Source: Verrucomicrobiota bacterium (GTDB lineage Bacteria > Verrucomicrobiota > Verrucomicrobiia > Verrucomicrobiales > DEV007). From it: a DNA stretch of 64,000 nucleotides. Every line of letters begins with the position of its first letter. Within the stretch, counting starts at the first letter, position 1. The notes under the pieces are model-generated. The model saw nothing but the letters and a program-made list of their open reading frames with translations, was not told the origin of the DNA and made no database searches. Both the position numbers and the translations under genes were made by a program. The stretch covers positions 1 to 64,000 of the forward strand of contig JAJRVS010000015.1 of assembly GCA_024277195.1 (NCBI GenBank), read 5' to 3'. Of this stretch, positions 38,016-59,608 are shown in pieces.

Positions 38016-38034
38016 GTCACAAAGAATGATTGGT
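38016..38034 (+). promoter_or_regulatory. Shared upstream motif of the two porin genes (copy 1)
   Basis: GTCACAAAxAAxxATTGGT occurs 73 bases before the first porin start and again 66 bases before the second porin (42704-42722), with 16 of 19 positions identical. The sequences around it differ, so it is a candidate binding site for a common regulator. Confidence 0.4.
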
Positions 38035-38107
38035 CACAGCGTGGGCGGGCGGCTAAGAGAGGGATGTCCACCGAAATGGGGGGCAAAAAAAGTAGCAAAT
38101 TAAAAAT

Positions 38108-39289: not shown

Positions 39290-39327
39290 CAGTTCCTTGG
39301 GGATACCCTTACTTTTGGTAATGGAGC

Positions 39328-39360
39328 GGGGTCTTTCCGAAAGGGAAGGCCCTACTTTTG
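39328..39360. terminator. Bidirectional terminator between porin and beta-carbonic anhydrase
   Basis: A ten-pair stem (GGGTCTTTCC at 39329-39338, GGGAAGGCCC at 39343-39352, two G-U pairs) with a GAAA loop, followed by TACTTTTG. It lies between two convergent genes. Confidence 0.55.
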
Positions 39361-39369
39361 TTGAGTAGT

Positions 39370-39990: not shown

Positions 39991-39996
39991 GGCTGA

Positions 39997-41592: not shown

Positions 41593-41669
41593 CGTTTTTG
41601 TTTTAGTGGGAGTTCAGTGAGGGAGGCTGGATTTTATTGACTGAAGAGATTCTACGTTTGGATATTATA

Positions 41670-41699
41670 TTGACAAATTGAAAATAAGAGTGTTTATCC
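41670..41699 (+). promoter_or_regulatory. Possible promoter of the LysR regulator gene
   Basis: TTGACA (41670-41675) is a perfect -35 hexamer, with a weak TTATCC-type -10 about 18 bases on, ahead of the ATG at 41720. The gap is shared with the divergent SulP gene, the usual place for LysR operator sites. Confidence 0.3.
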
Positions 41700-41719
41700 A
41701 TAGGTTAAACCTAATCGTT

Positions 41720-42658: not shown

Positions 42659-42703
42659 GGGAGGGAGCAGCAGGGTTATTAAGAGATTGTATGTGACCTA
42701 ATT

Positions 42704-42722
42704 GTCACAAATAAGAATTGGT
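42704..42722 (+). promoter_or_regulatory. Shared upstream motif of the two porin genes (copy 2)
   Basis: Second occurrence of GTCACAAAxAAxxATTGGT, 66 bases before the ATG of the second porin gene and just after the LysR stop codon. Confidence 0.4.
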
Positions 42723-42788
42723 TATTTGTAATGATTCATGATAGAGGCTGATTACCTTGACGTGAACAAAGCAAATAGTGGTGAGAAA

Positions 42789-43994: not shown

Positions 43995-44045
43995 GAAATT
44001 AATTTTTTTGCTAGACTAGCGATTAGAGGTGGCTGAAAGATAGCC

Positions 44046-44744
44046 ATGGCAAAACATTTCATTATTCTTGTGGTCTTGCTTGTTTGCTCGACCGCACAAA
44101 AAGGGCTGGGGCAAGTCGATGGTGGTCAACTTGGCTCGTGGTATATGTATTTCTGGGATGCTCCGATCAAAGATTCCCAATGGGGATTTCAAGGGGACTT
44201 TCAGCATCGCAGTTGGGGCGTTCCCCAGGATCTCGAACAGCGTTTGTTGCGTGGGGGGATCACCTATCGACCGGTCGACACAAAACTGAAGTTCACTTTA
44301 GGATCGGCTTATGTGTTAAGTGGTGATTTCGGTGAAAGTGATTCGAACAGTGAGGAGTGGCGGATTTATCAAGAGTTGCTTTTTCCACAAAAGCTAGGCA
44401 GCCGCTTTCATTTTAATCATCGTTTTCGTTTTGAGCAACGATTTGTGGAGAATCAGGATTTCAGAACACGTCTCAGGTATAATATATTCCTGAACATTCC
44501 GTTGAACATGAAGGAGATTGATGAGGGAGCTGTTTATCTGGCTTTTTACAATGAGTTGTTTCTCAATATGCAGAAAAACATTGGCAATGGGAAAAGTGTG
44601 GATCTTTTTGACCGCAACCGCGTATATGGAGGTTTAGGTTATGCCGTTAAGAAAAACTTTAGAGTGCAGTTTGCCTACATGCAGCAAACCACCAGTGATT
44701 GGAACAAGGGGCAGTTGCAGTTTAGTATTCATCATAAATTTTAA
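44046..44744 (+). CDS. DUF2490 outer-membrane-type protein
   Basis: 232 residues with a signal peptide (about 1-22) and a beta-strand-rich body ending in HHKF, as in small outer-membrane barrels. Motifs LGSWYMYFWDAPIKDSQWGF, RFHFNHRFRFEQRF and LRYNIFLNIPLN identify DUF2490. Function unknown for the family. A paralogue with the same motifs lies at 52338-53084 on the other side of the Dab genes, so one DUF2490 gene accompanies each half of the island. Confidence 0.88.
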   Translation: MAKHFIILVVLLVCSTAQKGLGQVDGGQLGSWYMYFWDAPIKDSQWGFQGDFQHRSWGVPQDLEQRLLRGGITYRPVDTKLKFTLGSAYVLSGDFGESDSNSEEWRIYQELLFPQKLGSRFHFNHRFRFEQRFVENQDFRTRLRYNIFLNIPLNMKEIDEGAVYLAFYNELFLNMQKNIGNGKSVDLFDRNRVYGGLGYAVKKNFRVQFAYMQQTTSDWNKGQLQFSIHHKF

Positions 44745-44759
44745 ACCACTCTGATTTTA

Positions 44760-45554
44760 ATGCGTTTTTTAATAGCTGTCGTTTTGTTTGTTGTATCTTG
44801 TGGCCCGGCCGAAAAGGTTAAATCTGAGCATTATTATTTTAAAAAAACAGCTCACCACCCTGATGCTCACTGGAGTTACGAAGGAGCTACTGGGCCTGAA
44901 TACTGGGGCAAGTTGAGTGCCAGTTATAGTTTGGCGGATACTGGGAAAAAGCAATCTCCTGTGAATATTGATACCAGTAAGCTGGTGGCGGACAAACTGC
45001 CGGAGCTCATTTTTAGCTACCGCAGCAAAGAGCGGCCGGATTTCATTAATAATGGCCATACTTTGCAACATCAGCAGGAGGAGGATGGCAGTGAGATTGA
45101 AGTAGCAGGCAAGCATTACAAGTTGGAGCAGTTTCATCTGCATTCACCCAGTGAACACACTGTAGACGGAAAATATTTCCCGGTTGAGCTGCACATGGTG
45201 CATAAAGCGGAAGATGGAGAAGTTGCCGTTCTTGCTATTTTCTATAAAGCCGGCGAGTCGTCACAAGCTTTGAAGTATGTGGCGCACGCAAAATTACCGG
45301 AGAAAGAGGGGGATAAAACGGTGATGAAACAAGGGATTCGTTTGAGAGATTTGGTGCCTGCCCAGCCGGATTATTATACTTATTCAGGATCATTTACCAC
45401 TCCACCCTGTAGCGAGGGGGTGAAGTGGTTTATTCTGAAACAAGCGCTTGAAGCCGAGGAGAAACTGCTAGATACGATAGCAGAAATACTCAAGCACAAT
45501 AATCGTCCCGCCCAGGACTTGGAGGGGCGGGAGGTACATGGTTTTGGGGGTTAG
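44760..45554 (+). CDS. Alpha-class carbonic anhydrase, lipoprotein
   Basis: 264-residue zinc enzyme, probably anchored in the periplasm: the N-terminus is a lipoprotein signal with lipobox FVVSC (Cys14). Zinc ligands are His126, His128 (EQFHLHSPSEH) and His145 (ELHMVH). The proton-shuttle His100 in NNGHTLQ and the TTPPCSEGV segment are present. It would convert CO2 and bicarbonate in the periplasm, complementing the cytoplasmic beta enzyme. It ends 15 bases from the convergent dabB gene. Confidence 0.95.
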   Translation: MRFLIAVVLFVVSCGPAEKVKSEHYYFKKTAHHPDAHWSYEGATGPEYWGKLSASYSLADTGKKQSPVNIDTSKLVADKLPELIFSYRSKERPDFINNGHTLQHQQEEDGSEIEVAGKHYKLEQFHLHSPSEHTVDGKYFPVELHMVHKAEDGEVAVLAIFYKAGESSQALKYVAHAKLPEKEGDKTVMKQGIRLRDLVPAQPDYYTYSGSFTTPPCSEGVKWFILKQALEAEEKLLDTIAEILKHNNRPAQDLEGREVHGFGG

Positions 45555-45569
45555 TGGAGGAGGGGCGGC

Positions 45570-47444
45570 TTACGAGGAGCGGAAAGCAAAGTCGTGGTAG
45601 TCGCTTTTGTGCTGTCCTAAAAACAGGCGTGAATAGATCCGGTAAACGACCAAACCATCCAAGACCAGGCAGAGGACTAACATGATAACCAGGGGGAATT
45701 GGTTTTCGTAAATGTGTCCTAACATCAGGTCTTCACCAATGAAGGTGGGGGTGATGGGGAATCCTGATATGCCTAGGCAGGCTAATACAAAAACAAACGC
45801 GAGTCTGGGGAATTCATAGCAGTGGCCATGGAATTGATCGAGGCTTATGTTTTTCCCTTTTGATTTGAGTCTGTAAATAACAAGCAGGCCAACGATACCT
45901 GAAACAAAAATTCCGCTTAGGAAAATATGGACCTGGGAGAAGTCAAACTCTTCGTTGAAGCCAAATGACAGCGAGAGGAATAATTGGCTTAAGATGATAA
46001 GCAACCATGCATTCAAAACTGACTTACGTTTCACGAAGGCTTTGAGGATTAATGAGAAGCTCAATACCGCAAAAATTTCAGGGATGTATTTTATTATTTG
46101 AACGGGAACCATTTCTTTATTGTAAACTCCGGCAAGTCCTAAAAAAAAGATGGGGAAATAAATTGCAAAAACAATTTTAGGGGAAATAAAATTGATCAAG
46201 TTGCCCAGTTTTTTCAGCGGATTCCACAAGAAATTATACATGAAAGTATCGAGGTTGAACTCTTTGATACTGAGAATATACACTGACAATTTCAAGCGAT
46301 CCCAGAACGAATCTTTGCGCTGGGCAGCAGGTGGGGAAAAATTGAAAAACTGGTTATGGATCTTGTAACTCAAGATGGATGGGGAAATAAGCAGTTGGTG
46401 GGTGCGCAGCATGGCATTGCCCACTAGATGGATCATGGCCAGCCAGTACAAACCGAATGATACTTCGATGAACATGAGGCCGATTTGAACCAACGAAGCA
46501 TAGGCTATCTGTGTTTTAATAGTAGATTGAACCTTGGCGGTGAACCCTGACAAGATCACGGTTATCAGACCAATGCCTCCGATGATAAAGTGAAACCAGT
46601 AGTTGCCTACCCATAAGGGCGATATCCGGATCAAAAGAAAAACCCCGATATGCGCCGAGAGTGATCCATAAAAAATAGAACTGGAAGTTGTGGGGCCCTC
46701 CATGGCGCGAGGCAACCATGATGAAAAAGGGAACTGGGCGGATTTGACCATGGCGGCCAGCAAGAACAGCCCAGGGATCAAATATTGATAGAACGGTTCA
46801 TTGTTAATATGATGATGGGAGCTTTCCAGTCCGTGAAGATCCCTGAAATTGATACTGTAGCCAAAATAATGATGGCTCAACCAGATCCCTAAAAGGATCG
46901 CCACATCAGCAACTCGATAGAGGGAGACCACCTTCAGGGCATTTTTTACCGGCAGATAGCGGTCGCGGTAAAAGCCGATCAGGAAAAAAGAAGTGACACC
47001 GAGGATTTCCCATCCTAGGAAAATGGTCTCCAGATTACCTGCCATCAATACCAGTAACAGACCGAAGTAGAAAAATTTGATGTTATTAAAAAACCGCTTA
47101 AAACCTTTTTCCCGATGCATGTAATTCTTGCTGAACATGACAATGATGCCGGTTAAGAAAGTTGCGGTTAATAAATAGACCAGACTGTAGCCATCGATCA
47201 AAAAGCTGATCGAAAAGTCAGCCTTTCCGGTGTGGTATAAAACCGGGCCTTCTACAAAAATGGGCTGGAATCCATTCCAAACCCAGATGATGGCCACGAC
47301 AACCAGAATCAGGTAATCAATCGCTACACCTGTTATAGATGTGGTGAAGATGGCTTTTTCGTTGTCATTGGGAAAAAGATAACTGATGATCAATGATAAA
47401 AAAGGAATGAGCAGCAAGGCATATAATAAATAACTTATGTTCAT
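45570..47444 (-). CDS. dabB: DabB-type membrane subunit of a DAB inorganic-carbon transporter
   Basis: 624-residue integral membrane protein related to NuoL/MrpA antiporter subunits. It has the FLGWEILGVTSFFLIGFYRDR block (the membrane Glu) and KSAQFPFSSWLPRAMEGPT, the lysine-bearing helix typical of proton-conducting subunits, with about 14 predicted helices. Standing alone with DabA and without other complex I or Mrp subunits, it fits DabB, the proton-channel partner of the two-subunit DAB (DABs accumulate bicarbonate) pump, rather than NADH dehydrogenase. The gap to dabA is 6 bases, supporting one transcript and a complex. Confidence 0.88.
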   Translation of the reverse strand: MNISYLLYALLLIPFLSLIISYLFPNDNEKAIFTTSITGVAIDYLILVVVAIIWVWNGFQPIFVEGPVLYHTGKADFSISFLIDGYSLVYLLTATFLTGIIVMFSKNYMHREKGFKRFFNNIKFFYFGLLLVLMAGNLETIFLGWEILGVTSFFLIGFYRDRYLPVKNALKVVSLYRVADVAILLGIWLSHHYFGYSINFRDLHGLESSHHHINNEPFYQYLIPGLFLLAAMVKSAQFPFSSWLPRAMEGPTTSSSIFYGSLSAHIGVFLLIRISPLWVGNYWFHFIIGGIGLITVILSGFTAKVQSTIKTQIAYASLVQIGLMFIEVSFGLYWLAMIHLVGNAMLRTHQLLISPSILSYKIHNQFFNFSPPAAQRKDSFWDRLKLSVYILSIKEFNLDTFMYNFLWNPLKKLGNLINFISPKIVFAIYFPIFFLGLAGVYNKEMVPVQIIKYIPEIFAVLSFSLILKAFVKRKSVLNAWLLIILSQLFLSLSFGFNEEFDFSQVHIFLSGIFVSGIVGLLVIYRLKSKGKNISLDQFHGHCYEFPRLAFVFVLACLGISGFPITPTFIGEDLMLGHIYENQFPLVIMLVLCLVLDGLVVYRIYSRLFLGQHKSDYHDFAFRSS

Positions 47445-47450
47445 GGTATG

Positions 47451-50000
47451 TTATTTTGAATAAACGTAGGTTGGGATGTTTTCCTCGGTGGCATCGAGGA
47501 TGTGGTTGGTTTTCATCTCCGGCCTTTCTTTGATCACCCTGTTGATGTCATCGGTGAGTAAGACTTCTTTCAGAGGAGTGTATTTTTCGAAGTTGCCATT
47601 GCGGAATAAATACAGATTGCTGTCTTCAGGAGAAATGGAGATCAGATGAATCCAGCCTTTATCAAACCAGTCATAAATGGCGGCTGAAGACTTGATGATC
47701 TTGAGAATGACCTCTGGACGATGCTCTATCATCATCAATAACCGAACCGGGTCATGATTCTCGATCATTTGCAATGGCAGGCCTGTTCGGATATCACCAT
47801 CACTGCTATTGGTCACGCCGATGAGTCCGGTTACATTGTGAGGCAACTTTGTTCCTGCGCCCATTTTTTCAATGTCCATTCTTGAAAAATAATACTCCAG
47901 GTTGATACCGCCACAAACCCCAGGCAGTGGCCCAAGAACCTGGGCCAATACTTGCCCTTCGGGATCAGTGCTGCAATCATACGATTGTAAAAATGCGCGA
48001 CGATCTAGAAACAGGCCTTTGATTTTATCTATCGAACCTATGTGGCACAGGGCATTGGTGCCGTGCCCTAATTCCGGGCGCGGTTCAAAATAGGAGACGG
48101 ACCGCTGTTTGACCTGTTTGCGAATATTCTTCAGATCTTTGTTGATGTTGATGGAAGAAAAGCGCCGACCTCGTTCCTTTGCATTGTGATCAAGTGCCGT
48201 TTCAAAGACCGTCTTGTTGAGAGTATGTGCTTTTTCATGGCTGACTGAGAGCAGGTCTTCGTCATAAAAGGCTACTTCATCACTGGCGGTGTCATGCATG
48301 GCGGCAATGAAGCGGGTGGTTTGTGGAATGACCAGACCTCTCTCAACCAAAATTTTTCGGACTTCTTCATGATTGGCCATGAATGCATAAACACGGGCGT
48401 TGACTGCGCCGGGCCTTCCACTGCAAGCCCCGCAATCATGGGCTCCATGGTGGGGATTGTTCGCACTGCTGCTACCGTGGGCGACAATGTAAACAATGGG
48501 CGCGAAATCCTGGATCAATCCGATTCCCTTTAAAATAGGTTCGACTACGTCGGCCATTTCGTGGACTTGATAACCGACTTGAACCCCATTCTCGATTTCG
48601 TCCGGGCTCTGGTTTTCGATTAACAACTTGCCATTCACGTCCATGTGCGCAAAAGCATCGGATATGTCCGCTTGCATCTTCGGGTTGGCCAAATCCAAGG
48701 TCATTTTGAATCCTGCCAACAAACCAATGGAGAAAACAGAGGCTACTCCGTGGAAAAAAGAATGGGTTTTGTTGTTGTGAAAAATCTCATGTTTCCTGAC
48801 ATGGTTGGATTCCACCTCTTTGATCAGATGAGTGGGTTCGAGGGCTACCGGACAATTTTTGTCATAGAATTTTCCGCCGAAGGGCTGGAAGTAAATAGCC
48901 GCACCGAAAAATCCAGGCGCTCCATAGGTGATGCATTGTGGGTCAGCACTCTCCAGATGTCTGCGGTAGGAGCACTCCCGGTCATCCACACAAAACACCG
49001 CTTGAAAACTCGCCGTGCTTTGATTTGAAGTGCTGCCGTTTTTTGCTGAATAGACCACTCCCGACAGAACATCATCGTAATAATCCCATTCAAATGCTTC
49101 CTGCCAGAGTTGCAGTATTTGTTCCAGTTCGTCATGCTTTACCGGGGATAGGTAATCCATGGGAACTTCGGTGAAATCGAGCGCCAGGGGATTCCATTTG
49201 TTTCCCAAGGTTTTATCAAGAGCGTCGATTTCCAACAACAGTTCGAGCAGAATCAGATCCTGAAATTTGACATTCTTTTTGTAAAAGATGCTGTCGGGAT
49301 TTTCTTCAATGACAGCCACAATGCCACTCCAGCCTTTGTGTGAGAATTGTTGGTCAAAGAGGTAGTTTTTGTAGTAATCAGGATTGCCTACTACGATAGC
49401 TAGCAGTTTTTCTATGGATAGATCGTTTTCGAAGAGCAGTTGCTTGGCTCTTTTTGATTTAAAAAAACTGGTAAAGCTGTTTTTTTCCAGGATGCGAATG
49501 GCCTCGATGAGGCCTTCGGTTTCAAAGGGGAAGTGCCACAGCGCGATTCCCTGATCCAGAAAGCTACCCAGGATTCGGAACAGCAGTGGTTGAACCAGGT
49601 TGTCGAGGCCGATTTTGTATTGTTTTTTCCATTCTTTCCTCAGTTTGCCAACTCGTGGGTTATAGTGGTGCTTGAGATCCGCGTTCAGCATCTTATCCAG
49701 ATACTCTTCGATCTTGTTGGGGCCTTTGCTGCGCTCGATAACCTGCTCAATAATTTCTTTCCGGATCCTGCCTTGGTGGTGCAGTTTGCGATAATTATTG
49801 ATATTGAAGGTGACGTGGAAGCCAAATATCTTCGAGGCACTGAATATGCCGTCGAAGAATTCCTTGTCCTGAAACGAATGCAATGAGTTGTGGTGCACAA
49901 AATCCTTCAAAGTAGATTGTGCCGGCAGATAGTGCTTCAACTGGTGAAGCACTTCGCTTTCATTGAACAGGCTTTTTTTCATTTCTGTAGGATTTAGCAT
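47451..50000 (-). CDS. dabA: DabA (DUF2309) catalytic subunit of a DAB inorganic-carbon transporter
   Basis: 849-residue protein of the DUF2309 family, a distant beta-carbonic-anhydrase relative. The four zinc-site residues known from the characterised DabA of Halothiobacillus are all found with the same spacing: Cys337 and Asp339 (FCVDDRECSYRRHLE), His508 (IVAHGS) and Cys523 (HDCGACSGRPGAVNARV); the pairs are two and fifteen residues apart as expected. DabA hydrates CO2 vectorially in the cytoplasm, driven by the ion gradient through DabB. Its start overlaps the SulP stop by seven bases, showing co-translation with a SulP transporter. Family length fits. Confidence 0.95.
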   Translation of the reverse strand: MLNPTEMKKSLFNESEVLHQLKHYLPAQSTLKDFVHHNSLHSFQDKEFFDGIFSASKIFGFHVTFNINNYRKLHHQGRIRKEIIEQVIERSKGPNKIEEYLDKMLNADLKHHYNPRVGKLRKEWKKQYKIGLDNLVQPLLFRILGSFLDQGIALWHFPFETEGLIEAIRILEKNSFTSFFKSKRAKQLLFENDLSIEKLLAIVVGNPDYYKNYLFDQQFSHKGWSGIVAVIEENPDSIFYKKNVKFQDLILLELLLEIDALDKTLGNKWNPLALDFTEVPMDYLSPVKHDELEQILQLWQEAFEWDYYDDVLSGVVYSAKNGSTSNQSTASFQAVFCVDDRECSYRRHLESADPQCITYGAPGFFGAAIYFQPFGGKFYDKNCPVALEPTHLIKEVESNHVRKHEIFHNNKTHSFFHGVASVFSIGLLAGFKMTLDLANPKMQADISDAFAHMDVNGKLLIENQSPDEIENGVQVGYQVHEMADVVEPILKGIGLIQDFAPIVYIVAHGSSSANNPHHGAHDCGACSGRPGAVNARVYAFMANHEEVRKILVERGLVIPQTTRFIAAMHDTASDEVAFYDEDLLSVSHEKAHTLNKTVFETALDHNAKERGRRFSSININKDLKNIRKQVKQRSVSYFEPRPELGHGTNALCHIGSIDKIKGLFLDRRAFLQSYDCSTDPEGQVLAQVLGPLPGVCGGINLEYYFSRMDIEKMGAGTKLPHNVTGLIGVTNSSDGDIRTGLPLQMIENHDPVRLLMMIEHRPEVILKIIKSSAAIYDWFDKGWIHLISISPEDSNLYLFRNGNFEKYTPLKEVLLTDDINRVIKERPEMKTNHILDATEENIPTYVYSK

Positions 50001-51589
50001 GTTCTTTTATGGGCTGCCAGGTCATGCCCCGATAGTGGGGTTAGTTTATCAAGGCCTAGAATATTCACCGTTCCTCCATCTTCTTCATAATCGTGTTTGA
50101 AGTGGTGAAGGTTGTCCAAGAAGGAGTGATCGACCAATTTCACACTGTCTGAGAGCTCAATGTCGATATGTTTTTTACCAGGAATACTGTCGATGTGTTT
50201 TTTAACGCCTAAATAGTTGGAGAAGAGGGCCGCGTTGTTGATGGTGATGGTGTAGTTTTCAGAATCACTATTTTCCACATTCACCGAGGCTTTGAATAGA
50301 TGCCGGGCACGAACACCCCGCACGGTATGGATCACCAGTTTCAACAGGATGCCGGCGGCAATCCCTAACAACAGATCTTCTGCGAGAGTGACGATGATCG
50401 TAGTTGAAAATATGGCCAGTTGGTCTTTGCCGATTTTCGACATGTGTAGGAACTCCTTTGGGTGGGCCAGATTGATGCCGACGGAAATAAGCATGGCGGC
50501 CAAAGCTGCATTGGGGATCATTTCCAGGACGGGGTAGGCCACTAATACGAAGACCAAAAGAAATACACCGTGGAAAAAGTTGGCCCAGCGGGTTTTTGCC
50601 CCGTTTTTGATGTTGGCCGAACTTCTGGCTACTTCAGAGATCATGGGGTAACCGCCGAGGAAGGCTGAAAGCGTGTTGCCAATCCCGATCGCAATCAAAT
50701 CCCGATTTGGGGAGGACTTTCTTTTGTAAGGGTCGAGCAGATCGATCGCTTTGACCGTCAATAGGCTTTCCAAGGTGCCCACCAAAGACAACATGATTAC
50801 ATATTTTATGAATACGCCGGTGTGGCTGACACCTTCGAAACTCGCATTGATGGCAAGACTGTCTATCAGGCTGCCCACCTTGACTAGGGTGTAAACCGGT
50901 TCAGTGGTGGTGAAATTCATGAAGAGGCCTGCAGGAATCGCAAACAGGAGAACGATGAGAGGGGCGGGGAATTTGGAGAGGATCCGGTGTTTGATGCGTG
51001 GCCATCCCAGCATGATGGCGAGACTGATCAGGCCGACAAGAGTGGCACGCGGGTCAAGGTTCGAGATAAATTTCGGGATGTCGTAGAACAATTCAAAGGG
51101 CCCTTCACCTTTACTCAAGCTGGGGTTGTCATTTAATAAAACGGGGATTTGCTTGGCGATAATGATCAGTCCGATCGCAGCCAACATGCCGTGAATGGCG
51201 GACAGGGGAAAGAAATCCACGTATTTGCCGAGCTTGGTGACCCCAAATATTATTTGCAGGATTCCAGCCGCCACCATGGCGCCTGCGGCCATTTTCCATC
51301 CTTCAACCCCGCCGCCAAATTCCGCCACCGCTCCAGCGACGATCACGATGAGTCCTGCTGCCGGGCCTTTGATGGATAATTTGCATCCAGTGAAAAAGGT
51401 AATTAGGACACCGCCGATAATCGCTGAGATAACTCCCATCAGAGGGGGGATGCCAGAGGCTTGGGCGATGCCTAGACTTAGTGGCAGCGCGAGTAAAAAG
51501 ATGCTGAATCCTGAGCTCAAGTCAGAGCTGAAATTTTCCTTGAGTCCTTCCAACCAGTCTTTGGGGGGTGTTGTTTTTGTAGCGTTCAT
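49994..51589 (-). CDS. SulP-family anion transporter in operon with dabAB
   Basis: 531-residue inner-membrane protein, a paralogue of the SulP at 39997-41592. Core helices include GFSIFLLALPLSLGIAQASG and SIKGPAAGLIVIV; the C-terminal STAS-like domain (about 435-520) has IELSDSVKLVDHSFLDNL. Its stop overlaps the dabA start (ATGCTAA), so it is part of the Dab operon. Substrate is inferred to be bicarbonate from this coupling; sulfate cannot be excluded. The 216 bases upstream contain three small hairpins and an element shared with another leader in the island. Confidence 0.92.
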   Translation of the reverse strand: MNATKTTPPKDWLEGLKENFSSDLSSGFSIFLLALPLSLGIAQASGIPPLMGVISAIIGGVLITFFTGCKLSIKGPAAGLIVIVAGAVAEFGGGVEGWKMAAGAMVAAGILQIIFGVTKLGKYVDFFPLSAIHGMLAAIGLIIIAKQIPVLLNDNPSLSKGEGPFELFYDIPKFISNLDPRATLVGLISLAIMLGWPRIKHRILSKFPAPLIVLLFAIPAGLFMNFTTTEPVYTLVKVGSLIDSLAINASFEGVSHTGVFIKYVIMLSLVGTLESLLTVKAIDLLDPYKRKSSPNRDLIAIGIGNTLSAFLGGYPMISEVARSSANIKNGAKTRWANFFHGVFLLVFVLVAYPVLEMIPNAALAAMLISVGINLAHPKEFLHMSKIGKDQLAIFSTTIIVTLAEDLLLGIAAGILLKLVIHTVRGVRARHLFKASVNVENSDSENYTITINNAALFSNYLGVKKHIDSIPGKKHIDIELSDSVKLVDHSFLDNLHHFKHDYEEDGGTVNILGLDKLTPLSGHDLAAHKRTC

Positions 51590-51639
51590 TGTATTTTGTA
51601 AAAAGAGTTCTTCTGTTATTTGTGAATTTGGTGAGTAGC

Positions 51640-51712
51640 GGCATCACCACTTGCTGGTGAAATGCCGCGGATAAGCTTGCAGGAAACAAGCGCAGGGCGT
51701 GAAGTGCCCTGG
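51640..51712 (-). promoter_or_regulatory. Cluster of three hairpins in the leader of the SulP-dabAB operon
   Basis: Consecutive inverted repeats: 51640-51668 (CGGCAT/ATGCCG plus inner CACCA/TGGTG), 51676-51692 (GCTTG/CAAGC) and 51694-51712 (CAGGGC/GCCCTG). They lie 51 to 123 bases before the SulP start on the mRNA, with no T-run, so they could be a structured leader rather than a terminator. Confidence 0.45.
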
Positions 51713-51757
51713 AGAGGGGAATCGATTATGGTTTGAGTGCCGGTGAGCCTATGGTCA

Positions 51758-51779
51758 GGCTTGTGGCAATCAGACGAGC
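51758..51779. promoter_or_regulatory. Leader element shared with the DUF2490 leader (copy 1)
   Basis: GGCTTGT, then GCAA and AGACGAGC, with nearly the same spacing, also occur at 53164-53183. Each lies in the non-coding stretch between a small membrane-protein gene and the next gene of the operon. Confidence 0.4.
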
Positions 51780-51805
51780 ATCTACCCTTTCCTCAGTGTG
51801 AGGGT

Positions 51806-52159
51806 TTAACAGAAGTGGAGCTTCAAATTACAATATAAGATGTAATAGGGGAAATTCGCCAGGGCTTGAGCTTGGGCATGAGGGCGGCGCAAGTGTTGAG
51901 TGCGGCCGGAATAAACCGGAACCCTCAAGCCGGAATCTGCCAGTGACTGTGGAAACTTATCGCCGCCGTCACCGCCACCGGATTTTAAGCGTTGGCCACC
52001 GGATGAATCAGAGTGGTCTATTTCAAGCTCTTTGGACTCGATCGATTCTTCCTCTATTTCGGCTTGAGGCAGATATTGCGGCGCTTCATTTACGATCAAG
52101 AAGGACCCCGCAATGATGAAAACCAGAAAAATCCAGCTATGTGCTTTTAGTAATTTCAT
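51806..52159 (-). CDS. Small single-helix protein with conserved YYILYCN C-terminus (paralogue 2)
   Basis: 117 residues, unrecognised. One N-terminal membrane helix (SWIFLVFIIAGSFLIV), an acidic segment with SKELEIDHSDSS, then a basic low-complexity part and the ending PYYILYCNLKLHFC. A paralogue at 53286-53633 shares HxWIFL(V/I), PQAEI, SKELEI(D/G), SDSS, LKSG and PYYILYCNxKLxxC. The protein is encoded upstream of the SulP-dabAB operon. The two terminal cysteines, absent elsewhere in this copy, could bind metal or form a disulfide; the topology (N-terminal anchor) would place them in the periplasm if the helix is uncleaved. Confidence 0.65.
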   Translation of the reverse strand: MKLLKAHSWIFLVFIIAGSFLIVNEAPQYLPQAEIEEESIESKELEIDHSDSSGGQRLKSGGGDGGDKFPQSLADSGLRVPVYSGRTQHLRRPHAQAQALANFPYYILYCNLKLHFC

Positions 52160-52186
52160 TCAGCAGGGCTCCCTGAGGGCATTTCC

Positions 52187-52225
52187 AATTCGTAATGATT
52201 AGCAAGCGATTTGCAAATACGAATT
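52187..52225 (-). promoter_or_regulatory. Dyad upstream of small membrane-protein gene 2
   Basis: AATTCGTA (52187-52194) and TACGAATT (52218-52225) form an eight-base inverted repeat around an inner GCAA/TTGC pair, 28 to 66 bases before the ATG at 52159. It could be an operator or part of the promoter. Confidence 0.35.
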
Positions 52226-52292
52226 CTAGAGAAACCATACAAGGGACATGAGTTATTAGCAGTGGATCGCATGGCTTTCAAATTTTTTCTTT

Positions 52293-52320
52293 ATTCCTTG
52301 GGGCTTAAGCCCCAAGGAAT
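52293..52320. terminator. 28-base perfect palindrome after the DUF2490 gene
   Basis: The sequence is perfectly self-complementary around GCTTAAGC with a CCTTGGGG/CCCCAAGG stem. It lies 18 bases beyond the DUF2490 stop codon. No T-run follows on the minus strand, so it may act as a transcript-stabilising or pausing hairpin instead of a classical terminator. Confidence 0.5.
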
Positions 52321-52337
52321 TGGTAAGAAAACCAGCT

Positions 52338-53084
52338 TTAGAAACTATGGTGAACACTGAACTGCATTTGGTTTTTGCTCCAGTCAGGAGTGGTGTGGTG
52401 CATGATGCCGAGTTGCACCTTGAACTGTTTGTTAATCGCATATCCAAGGGCAGCGTAGGCCCAGTTGCGGTCAAAAAATCCCACGGACTTGCCATTGCCA
52501 ATATTGCTTTGGCCATTGAAGAACACTTCGTTGTAAAAGGCTAGATAGACCGTGCCACTTTCGATGGAGGTGTTGTTGAGAGGAATGTTCAGGAATAAAT
52601 TGTAGCGGTAACGGGTGCGGAAGTTTTGATTACCGATGAAGCGCTGCTCAAAGCGAAAACGGTGGGTAAAATAAAAGCGGTTGCCTATTTTTTTCGGGAT
52701 CAGGGCTTCCTGGTAGATTCGATGTTCCCAGGAAGTCGAATCATCATTACCAAAAACTCCGGACAAAAAATCGGCATAACCCATGGTGAGTTTGATATCT
52801 GTCTCGGGCAGGGTGTAAGTGAGTCCGCCGCGTAAAATACGCTGTTCGAAGTCATCAATGGCATTCCAACTGCGGTATTGGAAGTCGCCCTGAAATCCCC
52901 AGCGAGAGTCCTTGATGCTGGTATTCCAGAAATACATGTACCAAGTTCCTAGTTGATCTTCGTCGACTTGGCTGAAGAGTTTTGCGGGAGTGATGAAGGT
53001 GAATAGAATGGTGGCAAGAAGGCAATATTTTTTCAGTGATGTTTCAAGCTGAAGTTTGGGTCGAATTATTTTTATAGAATGCAT
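52338..53084 (-). CDS. DUF2490 outer-membrane-type protein, second paralogue
   Basis: 248 residues from the ATG at 53084; a hydrophobic segment at about residues 19-38 serves as signal peptide (the frame itself opens at 53138 but without signal-like sequence). It shares with the DUF2490 protein at 44046 the motifs LGTWYMYFWNTSIKDSRWGF, QRILRGGLTY, HRFRFEQRF and RYNLFLNIPLN, plus the HHSF ending of outer-membrane proteins. Function unknown. It is encoded between the two small membrane-protein paralogues upstream of the Dab operon. Confidence 0.86.
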   Translation of the reverse strand: MHSIKIIRPKLQLETSLKKYCLLATILFTFITPAKLFSQVDEDQLGTWYMYFWNTSIKDSRWGFQGDFQYRSWNAIDDFEQRILRGGLTYTLPETDIKLTMGYADFLSGVFGNDDSTSWEHRIYQEALIPKKIGNRFYFTHRFRFEQRFIGNQNFRTRYRYNLFLNIPLNNTSIESGTVYLAFYNEVFFNGQSNIGNGKSVGFFDRNWAYAALGYAINKQFKVQLGIMHHTTPDWSKNQMQFSVHHSF

Positions 53085-53163
53085 ATTTTGTAAAAAAGTG
53101 GTTTGTATTGGGTGAGTAGCTGGTGCATTTGTTGCCACCCAGGGGTGAGTATGCAGCGCTTGT

Positions 53164-53183
53164 GGCTTGTCGCAAAGACGAGC
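53164..53183. promoter_or_regulatory. Leader element shared with the SulP leader (copy 2)
   Basis: Second copy of GGCTTGT...GCAA...AGACGAGC, in the 200-base leader before the DUF2490 start. Both leaders also share GGTGAGTAGC and a TTTTGTAAAAA stretch nearer the following gene. Confidence 0.4.
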
Positions 53184-53285
53184 GGGCTTGAAAAAAAAGG
53201 CACGTCAAATGGCAAGAAGCCAAGCGTGTCGATCAACAGGCGTGGGTGCCAAGGTAGCTATTCCTGGATCCGCAGTGGTGAAACT

Positions 53286-53633
53286 TCAGCAGGAGGGCAG
53301 TTTCGGATTACAGTATAAGATGTAATAGGGGGAGTGATCCAGAGGGTGAGGCAGAGTTCGTAATCGAAGCAGTTTTACCTCGCGATTGAAAGCCGGTGCT
53401 GTCTGCTCACTGGAATTCACCAGTGAGGGAGGCAGGTCATTCCCTCCGTCTCCCGATTTCAGGTGGCGGTCTGCGGATGAATCCGATTGGCCGATTTCGA
53501 GTTCTTTCGAATCGTTGCAGCACTCATCTATCTCGGCCTGAGGTGAAAAGAGTTGAGAGCTGCCATCGATCAAACAAGAGCCTGCCAGGATCAGGATGAG
53601 AAAAATCCAGCGATGTGATTTCAACCATTTCAT
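53286..53633 (-). CDS. Small single-helix protein with conserved YYILYCN C-terminus (paralogue 1)
   Basis: 115 residues from the ATG at 53633 (MKWLKSHRWIFLILILAGS); an earlier in-frame start at 53684 would add a charged extension before the helix. Composition and order match paralogue 2: membrane helix, PQAEIDECCNDSKELEIG, SDSS, LKSGDGG, a variable basic section, and PYYILYCNPKLPSC at the end. Extra cysteines occur here (ECC, SC). It is the first gene of the minus-strand run small protein - DUF2490 - small protein - SulP - dabA - dabB. No known family is recognised. Bases 53634-53876 upstream contain only a small AAGCAC/GTGCTT hairpin near 53727. Confidence 0.65.
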   Translation of the reverse strand: MKWLKSHRWIFLILILAGSCLIDGSSQLFSPQAEIDECCNDSKELEIGQSDSSADRHLKSGDGGNDLPPSLVNSSEQTAPAFNREVKLLRLRTLPHPLDHSPYYILYCNPKLPSC

Positions 53634-53876
53634 TCGACGAAATTTCCTAGAGCTGTCTCTGCTTTGTGTTGAGTCTTCATTCATTCACACTTGCGAAAAA
53701 TTGAAAAACTTCAGACAACCTGTTCAAGCACTTAGCGGTGCTTGGGGGGTATTTCAAATTATTTTGTCATTTTGCAAGTGAGAATGGCGCGAATCGGCTA
53801 GACTGATTGCAGGTAAATCAGTTTACAGGGGGGATGCTACCCTTTACCCGTGCCGTTCAGCTATCACAAAAAAACG

Positions 53877-55067
53877 ATGAAAATAAAACGGCGTTACAGA
53901 TCATTCAAAAGCATCGGCCTGATCATTTTGTTGTCGAGCTGTGTGGTCATGGTTCGGGCGCAGAAGGAGGTATCGGTGAAGGTGGTCAAGCCCGAGCGTC
54001 AGACTTTGACTCTCTCGATCACCCAACCGGCGACGCTGCACCCTTATTATGAAGCGAATCTGGCTTCGAGGATCACCGGTTATGTGGAGTCGGTGGCAGT
54101 TGATATCGGCGATGCGGTCAAAAAGGGGGATACGCTGGCAGTGATCGATGCCCCGGAGAGGGTCAAGCAGCATGAGCGCAAGTTGGCTGAGGTGGAATTT
54201 CTCAAATTCAAGCAAGAGCAATTGAAAGCCGGGGTGGCAGTGGCAGTGGCGCAGGCCAAAGCGGATGCCCTGGAGTTTGAGCGGGTCAAGCGTCTGGCGG
54301 GGACTGGAGCGGTCACGCAGAAAGCCAAGGATGAATCCGAACGCCGGATGGAAAGCTCGAAGGCTGGGTTGGCAGTGGTCGAGGCTGAGGTGAAAAGCGC
54401 GGCAGCTTCGGTGGTGGTGGCGCAGAAGGAAACCGAGGAGATCAAAGCGATGATGGATTTTGCTACGCTGAAGGCTCCTTTTGACGGAGTGGTGACGATG
54501 CGTGCGGTTGATCCGGGGGATCTGGTCAAAGCTGCGGATACTTCGTCATCGCGCAAGTCACTATTTCAAATTGCCAAACTTGATCGTTTGCGGGTGCGTG
54601 TGGCGATTCCGGAGCGCTCGGCGGTGTGGGTGGACGTGGGGGATGAGGCTGCGTTCTCCTGTCGTGCGGTGAAGGAAATTTTGAAAGGCGAAGTGGCGCG
54701 CTTCTCTCGCTCAATCGATACCCAGACCGGTTCGATGCGGGTGGAGATCGATTTGGACAATTCCAAGGGCAAGTTGCTACCAGGCATGTTCGGGGAAGCG
54801 ACGATTCAGCTTGAGGAAATCGAGCAGGCGCTGGTCTTGCCGGCGCAATTGGTGCGTTTCGACGAGAGCGGCATTGTGGCCACGGTCTATGTGATCGAGA
54901 ATGGCAAGGTCAAAGTAAGGGCGGTAAAAACGGGAGCCGATGATGGTTTGCGTATTCAAATCGTGGAAGGCTTGACGGGCAGTGAACAAGTGGCCGCCGG
55001 ACAAATTGGCCGGCTCGCTGAAGGCTCTGCGGTAAAAGTGATTTCCGTTGAGAGTGGTTCCAAATAA
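53877..55067 (+). CDS. RND efflux periplasmic adaptor (membrane-fusion protein)
   Basis: 396-residue adaptor linking an RND pump to an outer-membrane channel. The start at 53877 (MKIKRRYRSFKSIGLIILLSSC) gives a lipoprotein-like signal (LSSC). Then come a lipoyl-like half (ASRITGYVESVAVDIGDAVKKGDTLAVID), a long coiled-coil hairpin (about residues 85-180), the second lipoyl half (ATLKAPFDGVVTMRAVDPGDLV), a beta-barrel domain and the membrane-proximal domain (LPAQLVRFDESG). It is the first gene of a three-gene operon, 17 bases before the permease. Confidence 0.93.
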   Translation: MKIKRRYRSFKSIGLIILLSSCVVMVRAQKEVSVKVVKPERQTLTLSITQPATLHPYYEANLASRITGYVESVAVDIGDAVKKGDTLAVIDAPERVKQHERKLAEVEFLKFKQEQLKAGVAVAVAQAKADALEFERVKRLAGTGAVTQKAKDESERRMESSKAGLAVVEAEVKSAAASVVVAQKETEEIKAMMDFATLKAPFDGVVTMRAVDPGDLVKAADTSSSRKSLFQIAKLDRLRVRVAIPERSAVWVDVGDEAAFSCRAVKEILKGEVARFSRSIDTQTGSMRVEIDLDNSKGKLLPGMFGEATIQLEEIEQALVLPAQLVRFDESGIVATVYVIENGKVKVRAVKTGADDGLRIQIVEGLTGSEQVAAGQIGRLAEGSAVKVISVESGSK

Positions 55068-55084
55068 ATAAATAACTACTGCTC

Positions 55085-58000
55085 ATGCCACTTGTTCGTT
55101 TCGCCATTCGCAATCCTTATGCCGTGCTCGCTATGGTGCTGGCATTGTCCTTTCTCGGATTGACCGTCTATCCGAAAATTTCCGCCGACATCCTGCCTGA
55201 CTTCAGGAAGCCGGTGATCGTGAGCTTTTTTTCCTATCCCGGTTTGCCCACTTTGGAGATGGAAAAGTCGGTGACTTCGCGAGTGGAGCGGGCGCTGACT
55301 CTGGCCAGTAATCGCGAGCGCATCGAATCGCGTACCATGCCGGGGGCGGCGATGTTGAAAATCACTTTCGAGGCGGGAACGGATTCCTCGGCGGCGATGA
55401 ATGATATTTTCAACTACGAACTCAGTGACATGTTTCACTTGCCGCCGGGCATTGAGTTTCCTTTCACTTTGAGTAGCGAGCCTGCCAATATGCCGGTTAT
55501 GCTCGGAGCGATTTCCGGGGAGGGGCTCAGTGAATCGGAGCTTTATACGATTGGATACTACGCAGTTAGAAATAAAATGGGTGGTTTGAAGGGGGTGCAG
55601 ATCCCGCATCCTTTTGGTGGAAAGTTCCGTCAAATCATGACCTATGTCGATCCGATGAAATTGGCAGCTTACAATCTGACCTTCACTGACGTGGTCGAGG
55701 CTTTGAAGCGTTCGAACATCGTTCTGGCCGGTGGCACGATGGAAATCGGTGATACTAATTATCAGGTTCACCCGATCAATACGCTCAAGGATGTCGAAGA
55801 AATCGACAATGTGGTGGTCACCGTGCGTGATGGTCAGCCCGTGTTTATCAAGGATCTTGGCCACACCGAGGATGACGCTGCCATTCAGTATAACATCGTC
55901 AGGGTGAACGGAAACCGTTCGGTTTACGTGCCGTTGTTGCGTGAACCCGGTCAGAATACGATTCAGGTGGTCGACCGGATCAGAAAAGGCATCGCTGAGG
56001 AGATTCCGAAAATGAAACAGCGCGGGGATATTCCCGAAGCCACCCGGGTGGATCTGGTCAGTGATCAATCGACTTACATTCGTCAGGCTATTGGCAATCT
56101 GCAGATGCAGGTTTTGCTTGGAGCTTTGTTGGTGGTCATCATTGTGATTCTATTTCTGCGCCGCTTGCGTCCTGCGCTGGCGATTTTGTTGATGCTGCCG
56201 TTGGCCTTGTTAACTGGATTGCTGGGTTTTTTCTTCACTGGGGAAACTATCAATGTCATGACTCTTGGCGGTCTGGCACTTGCGGTCGGCACGGTGGTTG
56301 ATGCCGGCATTGTGGTGGTTGAAAACATCATTCGTCATCGTGCGATGGGAAAAGATCCGGTGACTGCTGCGGAGCAGGGCACGTCCGAAGTGGCCGCGCC
56401 GGTATTTGCAGGGACGATCACTACTTTGGTGATTTTCATCCCGGTTATTTTTCTTAATGGCATGGTTAAATTTCTTTTCATGCCATTGGCGCTGGCTGCT
56501 GCTATCACGATTGCGGCATCCTATGTCATTGCGATGACGGTGGGGCCTGCTTTTTGCGCCAGGTTCCTCGGCAAGCTTGAGGCGGATTCGGAAAAACAGC
56601 CAAATGAGAGTGATGATAAAAAGGAGGCCAAGGGGGGCTACGAAAAATTACTGACGGTGGCCATGCGCGGGGGAGTGTTCACAGTTGCGGCGATCGGGGG
56701 TGTCACGCTTGCTCTTTTTCTCCTTTTTCCGGCCTTGGGCACGGAGTTGTTTCCCGAAGTGGATGCGGGAACTTTTGAGGTTCGTATCAAAACGGTGCCT
56801 GGCACTCGTTTGGGAAAAACCGAGGAGCTGGTAGCCCGTCTGGAGAACTCGATCACGGAGACCATTGGTGAAGACCAGGTTCAGTCGATCATTTCCAATA
56901 TCGGTTTGCCGGTGGGGAAGGCGGCGGGTTTCTCGACTATTCTCAGTTCTAATTCAGGCACGGATACCGCCTACATCATTGTTAATCTTCATAGCAAGGG
57001 GCGCAAGCGTTCGACAGCGTCCTACGTCAGTGAGTTGCGTAAAAAGTGGAAGACAAATTTCCGAGATGAGAAATTTCTTTTTGTCACTGGCGGCATTATT
57101 AATGCGGCCCTTAATGAAGGTTCGCCTTCGCCGATCGATATCGAAATTAAAACCGGTAAGCTGTCCACTGGTCGTGAGGCGGCCGAAATTATCGAAGCTG
57201 CCATGCAGGATATTCCGGGTGCGGTTGATGTTCAGATTGCCCAGATGCTTGATTACCCGCAACTCGATATCAAGGTGGATCGCACACGGGCGGCTTTTTA
57301 CGGATTGTCACAGGATGAAATCGCTAAGAATGTGCTGACCGCTTACGGATCGAGCACGGGTTACACTTCGATGATCTGGGTCGGTGCTGATGGTAAGGAT
57401 TTTTTCATGGGAGTGCAGCTCGGCGATAACCGTGCTGATAGCCTCGATGAATTGCGCAACTTGCCGTTGAGGGTTCAGACTGATGAGGGATCAACAACGA
57501 TTCCCTTATCTAATGTAGCTGAAATCAAACGGGTTAATATCCCGGGTGAAATCGCTCATGCCGATATCTCGCGGGTGAACAATGTTTACATCAATGTCGA
57601 AGGGCGTGATCTGGGCTCGGTCGTCGATGATGTGGAAAAACGACTCGCCGAACTCGACTTGCCGAAGGGGGTGACGGTATCAACCCAGGGGCCGGTCAAG
57701 ACCATGCGTGAAGGCGCGGCCAATCTGGCTTATGGATTGCTGGTGGCGGTGGTATTGGTTTTTCTGATTCTGATGGCTCAGTTCAAGTCCTTTGTTGATC
57801 CGCTGATCATCATACTGGCGGTGCCGCTGGCCCTTGCGGGAGTGGTGCTGATTTTGTTCATCACTGGCACAACTTTGAATATCCAGTCTTTCATGGGGTC
57901 GTTGCTGCTGATCGGGGTGGTGGTCAATAACAGTATTTTGTTGGTCGAATTTGCCAATATCAAATTGCGCGAGGGGCATAGTCCCTTTGATGCGGCTTTT

Positions 58001-58222
58001 GCGGCGGCGCGGATTCGGGTGCGGCCTATTTTGATGACCTCGGCCACACTGCTGGCTTCCATGGCTCCTTTTGCTTTTGCGCTTTTGCCGGGTAATGAAG
58101 CGATGATTCCCTTGGCGCGTGCGGTGATCGGTGGCATGCTGGTATCGACGGTGCTGACGCTCTTTTTGGTGCCGTGTGTTTTTGCCCTGGTTAAACGTAA
58201 ATTGGTGGAGGTGAGTGTGTGA
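55085..58222 (+). CDS. RND-family efflux permease
   Basis: 1045-residue inner-membrane proton-driven pump of the AcrB/MexB superfamily with twelve helices and two large periplasmic loops. Recognisable parts: N-terminal helix with NPYAVLAMVLALSFLGL, TM4 with GTVVDAGIVVVENI (a single Asp where AcrB has the Asp407-Asp408 pair, more like CusA/CzcA), the GPAFCARF turn, and the second half mirroring the first (GVVVNNSILLVEFAN). Substrates cannot be told from sequence; the single TM4 Asp makes either multidrug or metal export possible. Tightly co-encoded with adaptor and TolC-type protein. Confidence 0.95.
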   Translation: MPLVRFAIRNPYAVLAMVLALSFLGLTVYPKISADILPDFRKPVIVSFFSYPGLPTLEMEKSVTSRVERALTLASNRERIESRTMPGAAMLKITFEAGTDSSAAMNDIFNYELSDMFHLPPGIEFPFTLSSEPANMPVMLGAISGEGLSESELYTIGYYAVRNKMGGLKGVQIPHPFGGKFRQIMTYVDPMKLAAYNLTFTDVVEALKRSNIVLAGGTMEIGDTNYQVHPINTLKDVEEIDNVVVTVRDGQPVFIKDLGHTEDDAAIQYNIVRVNGNRSVYVPLLREPGQNTIQVVDRIRKGIAEEIPKMKQRGDIPEATRVDLVSDQSTYIRQAIGNLQMQVLLGALLVVIIVILFLRRLRPALAILLMLPLALLTGLLGFFFTGETINVMTLGGLALAVGTVVDAGIVVVENIIRHRAMGKDPVTAAEQGTSEVAAPVFAGTITTLVIFIPVIFLNGMVKFLFMPLALAAAITIAASYVIAMTVGPAFCARFLGKLEADSEKQPNESDDKKEAKGGYEKLLTVAMRGGVFTVAAIGGVTLALFLLFPALGTELFPEVDAGTFEVRIKTVPGTRLGKTEELVARLENSITETIGEDQVQSIISNIGLPVGKAAGFSTILSSNSGTDTAYIIVNLHSKGRKRSTASYVSELRKKWKTNFRDEKFLFVTGGIINAALNEGSPSPIDIEIKTGKLSTGREAAEIIEAAMQDIPGAVDVQIAQMLDYPQLDIKVDRTRAAFYGLSQDEIAKNVLTAYGSSTGYTSMIWVGADGKDFFMGVQLGDNRADSLDELRNLPLRVQTDEGSTTIPLSNVAEIKRVNIPGEIAHADISRVNNVYINVEGRDLGSVVDDVEKRLAELDLPKGVTVSTQGPVKTMREGAANLAYGLLVAVVLVFLILMAQFKSFVDPLIIILAVPLALAGVVLILFITGTTLNIQSFMGSLLLIGVVVNNSILLVEFANIKLREGHSPFDAAFAAARIRVRPILMTSATLLASMAPFAFALLPGNEAMIPLARAVIGGMLVSTVLTLFLVPCVFALVKRKLVEVSV

Positions 58223-58255
58223 TTTGGGTTGGGTGGAGCAATTGAAATTTTGATA

Positions 58256-59608
58256 ATGAAAAGATCCTTTTTAATTCATTTGGCCGGCGTGTTTTTTATC
58301 GGCTCGCTTTTGGCTGGCGAGGATGACCCCTATCGCATCGACCTTGCTGCTGCCTTGAAACTTGCGGATGCTGATAATACCCGGATCGCGTTGGCCAGGG
58401 AGCGGATCAAACAAGCCGAAGCGGAACTGAGTTTGGCTAAAATTTTAATCCTGCCCGACATTTCTGTTGGCGCGAGTTACAATCGCCACGACGGGCCTTT
58501 GCAAGCGAGCAGTGGTGACATTTTGGATGTCAAACGCAGTGCGGGTTATGCTGGCTTGGGATCCGGGGCGGTAGGAGCAGGTGATATGCAGGTTTCGGGA
58601 ATCGGATTGAACGTCGATCTGGGCGAGGCTTTTTACGCACCCCTGGTGGCTCGTCAGAACTTATTGGCGGTGAAAGCTGAAAGCGACGCAGTTAAAAACC
58701 AGACTTTACTGATGGTGGCGGCAGCTTATTTTGAATTGGTCAGGGCGCAGGGTAATCTTGAGGTTGCTTTGGAGGCGCATAAAAATGCCAGTGAGCTCGC
58801 TAAGACCACCAAGAGTTTTGCTGATAGCGGTCAGGGGCTGACTTCCGACAGCGAACGCAGTGGAGTGGAAGCTTTGATTCGCCAGCGAGGCATCGCCGTG
58901 GCACGCGAGGTGTTGGCGGTGCGCTCGGTGGAGTTGGCACGGTTGCTGCGTTTGACGATGGGCACCCAGTTGAGGGCGACGTCGAGCCCGGAGGCGCGTG
59001 TGCAATGGGTTGATGCCTCGCGCAGCGCCGAAGAGTTGATCGCAGAAGCTCTGGTCAATCGTCCGGAGTTGAAGGCGGGCGCGGCCCAGCTCAAAGGTGC
59101 TGAGCAGAGTTTGAACCGGACTAAGTTGGCTCCGTTGTTTCCCAAGATCAGTGTTGGGGCGAGTTACGGAGAATTTGCAGGTGGTCGTGGATCGACGATT
59201 AGTAGTGCGGGTAACCGGACGGATCTCAGTGTGGGGGTTTATTGGACTCTGGATGGTTTGGGGTTTGGGCAGCATGCCCGGGTGAAAGGAAAAAAATCGC
59301 TGCGGGAGCAGGCAAGGTTGTTGCGTTTGGATCTTAAGGACGGGGTTGCTGCTGATGTGTTTAATGCGCTCGCCGCGGTGCAGAATAGGAAGTCGCAAAT
59401 TGCGGCCGTTGCCGGAGCCGTTAATAAAGCCCGGCGCTCTTACGAACTGAACCGGACGCGGGTTTTTGAGAATCAAGGTTTGCCAATCGAAACCCTACAA
59501 GCGATTCAATCGCTGGCGACGGCACAAGCGATGCATCGTGATGCGGTGATTGATTATAACCTTGCGCAGTTCCAGTTGTACACTGCGTTGGGGCAACCGG
59601 GGGAGTAG
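58256..59608 (+). CDS. TolC-family outer-membrane channel
   Basis: 450-residue outer-membrane factor completing the RND system. The start at 58256 (MKRSFLIHLAGVFFIGSLLA) gives a signal peptide. Two OEP repeats are visible: about residues 25-220 (IDLAAALKLADADNTRIALARERIKQAEAEL) and about 250-445 (AEELIAEALVNRPELKAGAAQLKGAEQSL), each ending in long helices rich in Ala, Gln and Lys. The gene follows the permease by 33 bases. Confidence 0.93.
   Translation: MKRSFLIHLAGVFFIGSLLAGEDDPYRIDLAAALKLADADNTRIALARERIKQAEAELSLAKILILPDISVGASYNRHDGPLQASSGDILDVKRSAGYAGLGSGAVGAGDMQVSGIGLNVDLGEAFYAPLVARQNLLAVKAESDAVKNQTLLMVAAAYFELVRAQGNLEVALEAHKNASELAKTTKSFADSGQGLTSDSERSGVEALIRQRGIAVAREVLAVRSVELARLLRLTMGTQLRATSSPEARVQWVDASRSAEELIAEALVNRPELKAGAAQLKGAEQSLNRTKLAPLFPKISVGASYGEFAGGRGSTISSAGNRTDLSVGVYWTLDGLGFGQHARVKGKKSLREQARLLRLDLKDGVAADVFNALAAVQNRKSQIAAVAGAVNKARRSYELNRTRVFENQGLPIETLQAIQSLATAQAMHRDAVIDYNLAQFQLYTALGQPGE

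Follow-up and report, generated by a model that had tools for sequence, protein, structure and literature searches.

The window, that is, the whole 64,000-nucleotide stretch of Verrucomicrobiota DNA analysed here, carries two small related open reading frames (ORFs), A and B, which head two different genes on the same strand, and the question is what such a pair could be doing there. We refer to both, and to their homologues, as leaders, a name that describes their position.

The two leaders and their surroundings

Leaders A and B (Table 1) are 49% identical (E = 2e-33) and share every block listed in a preliminary description of this DNA, namely PQAEI, SKELEI, SDSS, LKS-G and the C-terminal PYYILYCN-x-KL-xx-C; across this last motif the nucleotide alignment contains a 25-nt run with one difference. 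An upstream ATG at 53684 offers leader A an alternative start, which would lengthen it to 132 aa. Both leaders have a Shine-Dalgarno-like sequence (AGGA/GGGAG) 5' of the ATG, and the sulP and DUF2490 starts have none, as read from the window. Neither leader matched a family in Pfam or NCBIfam, in keeping with the same description, which had recognised none. The predicted model of B consists of a single N-terminal helix (8-23) with no folded domain (pTM 0.27). A lipoprotein reading was rejected, as A contains AGSC but B has AGSF. The host genome holds A and B and no third copy among the matches read in a genome-wide scan, and genome scans with two degenerate DNA forms of the C-terminal core returned, among the matches read, no further leader-sized ORF ending in it.

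Pfam searches confirm the minus-strand order A, DUF2490, B, SulP, DabA and DabB, and with it the earlier placement of A before DUF2490 and of B before SulP-dabAB. The window SulP is 61-64% identical to the SulP of other leader-headed operons. The segments before the two downstream starts share direct repeats, so that the duplicated unit comprises the leader ORF together with its spacer, now lying ahead of unrelated genes. A perfect 28-nt palindrome, lacking a T-run when read on the minus strand, may keep the two leader units apart.

The carbon-uptake island around the leaders spans window positions 37000-53633 and also holds two porin-like genes. DUF2490 is probably a member of the carbon-uptake set, because it recurs in or next to Bacteroidota dab operons (L087, L088, L091, L105, L110, L113, L127, L149 and L164).

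Table 1. Features discussed in the text, in window coordinates unless a locus is named
Feature	Position	Strand	Remarks
Leader ORF A	53286..53633	-	115 aa; precedes DUF2490; hydrophobic N terminus, acidic middle, conserved C terminus
A, last 14 conserved codons	53289..53330	-	PYYILYCNPKLPSC, stop directly after
DUF2490 gene	52338..53084	-	248 aa from ATG; first after leader A; PF10677, 2.6e-48
Perfect 28-nt palindrome	52293..52320		ATTCCTTGGGGCTT/AAGCCCCAAGGAAT; just after DUF2490 stop, before leader B
Leader ORF B	51806..52159	-	117 aa; precedes sulP-dabA-dabB
B, last 14 conserved codons	51809..51850	-	PYYILYCNLKLHFC, stop directly after
5' arm of predicted helix	51808..51815	-	CTTCTGTT; last codons and stop of leader B
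Strong hairpin	51638..51668	-	GCGGCATTTCACC-AGCAA-GTGGTGATGCCGC; between leader B and sulP
Pre-sulP spacer segment	51592..51639	-	CTACTCACC..AAT..CA and TTTTTACAAAATA shared with 53084-53120 before DUF2490 (direct repeats)
3' arm of predicted helix	51610..51617	-	AACAGAAG; ends ~20 nt before SulP start codon
sulP (bicarbonate-type SulP relative)	49994..51589	-	first after leader B; PF00916
dabA	47451..50000	-	PF10070
dabB	45570..47444	-	PF00361
alpha-carbonic anhydrase	44760-45554		adjoins dabB
Second DUF2490	44046-44744		carbon-uptake island
NhaR-like LysR regulator	41678-42658		carbon-uptake island
Second SulP	39997-41592		carbon-uptake island
beta-carbonic anhydrase	39370-39990		with second SulP
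HlyD-RND-TolC efflux set	53850-59608	+	divergent from leader A
SulP-DabA fusion ORFs	L052 7483-11775; L090 5971-10152; L105 5860-10131; L091 441-4601; L111 5971-10122; L166 246-4421		

A family found by position

When the two-sequence alignment of A and B was used as the query, no homologue was found in 387 genomes of the order, in viral contigs or in 84,980 GTDB genomes, because the fast-evolving middle dominates such a query. The conserved part of the family is limited to ~8-14 C-terminal residues, and homologues are mostly <25% identical to the window copy. The route that worked was to locate orthologues of the neighbouring DabA and SulP and then read the DNA upstream. The nearest DabA orthologues (61% identity) have a small ORF directly upstream of their SulP, ending before the stop in VPKYVLYRCLRLDC and AKRYLLFCCLKVDC, as compared with PYYILYCNLKLHFC in the window. 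A SulP alignment, scanned across GTDB, yielded 80 loci, mostly from Bacteroidota, where the leaders end in IPLYDLYCNWKFHLS (Flavobacterium), LPPLYDFFHSWKIHLS (Algoriphagus), TPFFILFRNIRL (Aquirufa), LKRYLLFHALKLDC (Lewinella) and VKRFILYCSLKLHC (Arcicella). Among loci of the same order with ~40% identical DabA (L025-L051), the upstream DNA was mostly too short for a call; of two relatives from the window's genus, one (G002, whose contig is that of L089) breaks off inside sulP and the other gave no DabA match. No Pfam or NCBIfam family is common to the members, and the leader has no match above chance in Rfam. The family shows how position can reveal homologues that a sequence search misses.

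The C-terminal core reads [YF]-[IDL]-L-[FY]-[CHR]-x-[WLI]-[KR] and lies 1-8 residues from the stop; a looser form, [YF]-x-L-[FY]-x-x-[WLI]-[KR], describes the family. Position 5 varies among Cys, His, Arg and Gln (Cys in 27/59) and position 7 among Trp, Leu and Ile (Trp in 29/59), and the peptide ends in Cys, Ser, Leu or Ile. Most leaders are 97-180 aa long, with an N-terminal hydrophobic segment by hydropathy in 61 of 64 and an acidic patch in 59 of 64; the hydrophobic segment is separated from the core by 60-141 residues (median 90). Small proteins with a hydrophobic N-terminal segment, a variable middle and conservation at the extreme C terminus, as first described from the two window copies, thus form a real family. 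The cysteine-bearing sensing tip suggested at the same time lacks general support: terminal cysteines are not universal, being replaced elsewhere by Ser, Leu or Ile, and metal or thiol sensing is unsupported as a general property.

One leader departs from this plan. In G174 (L059), the orthologue of the G148 leader has lost the stop after the core and gained 22 extra residues, and the Y of its core is changed to S. Either this leader is decaying or the core need not sit at the stop; the stop loss implies that the position of the core at the stop is not absolute.

The initial filter was a hand-made pattern, and circularity was checked by two scoring tests. A position-specific scoring matrix (PSSM) of the 8-residue core, trained on Bacteroidota leaders only, ranked B first (24.0 bits) and A second (18.9 bits) among the 208 window ORFs of 60-250 aa, the next scoring 7.2; it also placed the leaders first at three other Verrucomicrobiota loci, all those tested. 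With leave-one-out matrices, 61 of 65 leaders reached at least 12 bits versus 0 of 753 control ORFs (80-180 aa) from the same loci.

Codon comparisons separate the end of the leader from the rest. Among 29 related pairs, dN over the last 14 codons is mostly 0-0.06, with dS of about 0.3-1, whereas dN outside the C terminus is mostly 0.1-0.8. Synonymous and amino-acid differences number 73:29 at the C terminus versus 394:1547 elsewhere, counts that are descriptive as the pairs overlap, and between A and B the last 15 codons give a dN/dS of 0.14/0.88. By these comparisons the C-terminal peptide, beyond the RNA alone, is under purifying selection, and the remainder appears weakly constrained. The two checks proposed in the preliminary description, a search for homologues outside this genome and for protein-level selection among close relatives, thus both gave a positive answer, the latter at the C terminus.

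The leader is the first ORF, on the same strand, in 62 of 65 operons of the sulP-dabA-dabB type from Bacteroidota and Verrucomicrobiota. It stays 5'-most in both gene orders, sulP-dabA-dabB and dabA-dabB-sulP, and a spacer of 32-301 nt (median 95) separates it from the first gene. Three operons have no counted leader: L140 and L158, with <280 nt of upstream DNA, and L136, which is doubtful. In the last of these, from Phycisphaerales, the ORF has the right build but was not counted, its core scoring only 4.3 bits. None of eight solitary sulP loci has a leader; by the search used, six of these genomes lack DabA and the other two, both Verrucomicrobiota, have distant DabA only. In two genomes where the sulP contig provides no upstream DNA, the leader precedes dabA on another contig. 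The fixed leading place and the absence at solitary sulP link the leader to the start of the dab operon rather than to SulP. A contact with SulP or DUF2490, also suggested earlier, is not supported by these data, in which the gene that follows varies (sulP, dabA or DUF2490) over ~60 operons and solitary sulP has no leader.

Several leader-headed operons, in Lewinella and relatives and in one genome of the window's own family, encode a SulP-DabA fusion as one ORF of ~1390-1430 aa (Table 1). The fused ORFs suggest that SulP and DabA act as one complex.

Pairing between the leader end and the next start

At copy B, the end of the leader is predicted to pair with the spacer close to the sulP start. 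The helix CTTCTGTT/AACAGAAG has a duplex energy of -11.5 (z = -5.3), and 0 of 100 shuffles were as low; the region holding the hairpin between leader B and sulP folds with z = -5.6. Copy A, before DUF2490, gives no pairing signal (z = -0.8). Of the 64 loci in total, 20 rank within the best 5% of the duplex shuffle test versus ~3 expected, about two thirds being unremarkable, and spacers in several clades fold better than their shuffles.

Two clades contribute further detail. In ten loci of Algoriphagus type, CTGAG in the final leader codons pairs with a CTCAG lying a short way 5' of the dabA start; this structure carries compensatory changes at a level reached by 0 of 500 shuffles. At twelve Flavobacterium loci the helix joins TTAATAC, a segment that takes in the stop codon, to a non-coding GTATTAA that does not vary, and the dabA start codon lies in another hairpin (96% of cells paired). 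Covariation in Flavobacterium is weak, because the arms do not vary, most paired columns being invariant. A stem-loop at the start of the next gene is thus clear in Algoriphagus, in Flavobacterium and at copy B, though not in every clade.

An intrinsic terminator or attenuator in the spacers was considered and rejected, as two terminator-like sites were found versus three expected by chance. A small hairpin can arise within the core codons themselves, ATTACA..TGTAAT in the window (51809-51850 and 53289-53330) and TTTTCATTCCTGGAAAA in Algoriphagus (L094, L124 and relatives); it might act as a pause hairpin or simply follow from the codons chosen.

Candidate mechanism and alternatives

The fixed 5' place, the divergent remainder, the long spacer and the RNA pairing fit a cis-acting leader better than a transporter subunit. 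A and B are probably cis-acting, export-coupled leader peptides, in which a ribosome pause at the C terminus opens translation of the gene downstream. As the leader is translated, its N-terminal hydrophobic segment would engage the membrane or Sec machinery with the C terminus still in the exit tunnel, and the conserved core would cause the ribosome to pause near the leader end, under a condition sensed via export or via the acidic middle. The paused ribosome would sit over the helix's 5' arm and free the next start, allowing translation of sulP-dabA-dabB for copy B or of DUF2490 for copy A; if no pause occurs, the helix would re-form and expression would remain low. Since a ribosome halted at the core would mask this arm, arrest should switch the operon on. 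We infer the arrest, its direction, the coupling to export and the signal, which would most plausibly be inorganic-carbon supply, pH or membrane energisation. Against an arrest, the core resembles no tested arrest sequence, with neither RAPP nor a proline-rich end, RNA pairing is missing in some clades, and the core of the G174 leader is not at the stop.

Similar designs are known. CutF from Rhodobacter capsulatus (PMC9973294) and CruR/DUF2946 from Bordetella pertussis (PMC9426467) are likewise small ORFs that head an operon and carry an N-terminal export signal, and like the present leaders they combine a conserved C-terminal stalling-type motif with transport or homeostasis targets, not Sec genes. 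CutF also has an mRNA stem-loop before the next gene (PMC9973294), as is predicted for several clades here. However, CutF and CruR bind copper by CxxC/CxxxC and have proline-rich or RAPP ends, neither of which is conserved in the present family: among the C termini compared, PP or RAPP within the last 15 residues is not a feature of the leaders, PP adjoining the core only in some Algoriphagus, and they match neither DUF2946 nor any other family model. Their target is inorganic-carbon uptake, whereas the main text of the CutF paper (PMC9973294) mentions neither SulP nor DUF2309.

Export-coupled arrest peptides are recognised by four criteria, namely a place as the upstream ORF of secA, secDF or yidC, an N-terminal signal or transmembrane segment, a conserved C terminus and a spacer of >30 residues (PMC10987492). 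With the Sec/YidC-linked class that includes SecM, VemP and MifM (Fujiwara et al. 2024, PMC10987492), the leaders share three of these four: the N-terminal localisation signal, the conserved C terminus and the spacer of >30 residues, the latter resembling secretion-type arrest peptides (PMC10987492) in its 60-141 residues (median 90). They differ in the remaining one, as their next gene is sulP, dabA or DUF2490, and their core bears no relation to RAPP, KYxIW, LPPP, NSP-stop, NAP-stop or DGMK-stop (PMC10987492). Since the defining points fail, that is, the downstream gene, the RAPP or proline-rich end and the match to DUF2946, the leaders would function like the known families and not be members of them. 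By this analogy, it is likely that they work as CutF, SecM and VemP do, with a new motif and a new target.

The leader could instead be a small stable membrane protein, an accessory subunit or partner of DAB/SulP whose core docks on DabA or DabB, as its hydrophobic segment, its tie to dab operons and its absence at solitary sulP would allow. DAB1 is known in a three-component form that includes, as an additional small transmembrane protein, hneap_0908 (PMC13144422), and that protein is, like the leaders, small, hydrophobic and encoded with dabA and dabB. By description the two are nevertheless set apart: hneap_0908 is counted as a subunit and its locus number places it between dabA1 and dabB1, not ahead of them, whereas the leader comes first in its operon and is followed by a spacer of regulatory appearance. 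A subunit is also unlikely in that the leader is always first, with a long spacer, while the other genes swap order; all but ~8-14 residues are free to vary, an extra copy stands ahead of DUF2490, RNA pairing spans the leader end and no folded domain is predicted.

An attenuator of amino-acid supply, in which scarce charged tRNA (Cys, Trp or Tyr) stalls the ribosome as in polycysteine leaders, would suit the enrichment of the rare Cys and Trp in the core and the sulfate-transporter homologue downstream in the window. It is very improbable, however, since none of the codons is shared by every member, the leaders are mostly 97-180 aa long with a hydrophobic segment, and the target is carbon uptake. 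Equally hard to credit is a nucleic-acid element, either an operator or a riboregulator, that is open in frame by chance and whose peptide is irrelevant. The window motif codons do contain ATTACA-N8-TGTAAT, A and B share their 25-nt run, and in some clades hairpins extend over the motif codons, but close pairs show synonymous codon changes with the residues kept, it is at the amino-acid level that the core is recovered from one phylum to another, and Rfam gave no match. The precursor of a secreted peptide or pheromone, with a signal sequence, a spacer and a C-terminal mature peptide, has the least chance of all: it shares the signal-like N-terminal helix, variable middle and conserved C terminus, but no adjoining processing or export genes were seen, the linkage is to carbon uptake, and each operon has a single copy, always in the leading place, with RNA coupling to the next gene.

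Returning to the cis-acting, export-coupled leader, we found no report of carbon uptake under leader-peptide ribosome stalling in the literature searched, outside which most subscription journals lay, and the newest structural paper describes the regulation of DAB-type complexes as open (PMC13144422). It is possible, and we suggest it tentatively, that the family forms a new class of nascent-chain sensor in Bacteroidota and Verrucomicrobiota, one that halts the ribosome in response to inorganic-carbon supply, pH or membrane energisation while it is itself being exported, and in this way determines the DAB/SulP level. If true, carbon uptake would for the first time be seen under the control of an arrest peptide, one with a new arrest sequence, and the leaders would offer a ready test system. 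Nascent-chain control would then reach beyond protein secretion and copper to the supply of carbon, and many heterotrophic Bacteroidota and some Verrucomicrobiota would tune their carbon uptake by an export-monitored leader peptide.
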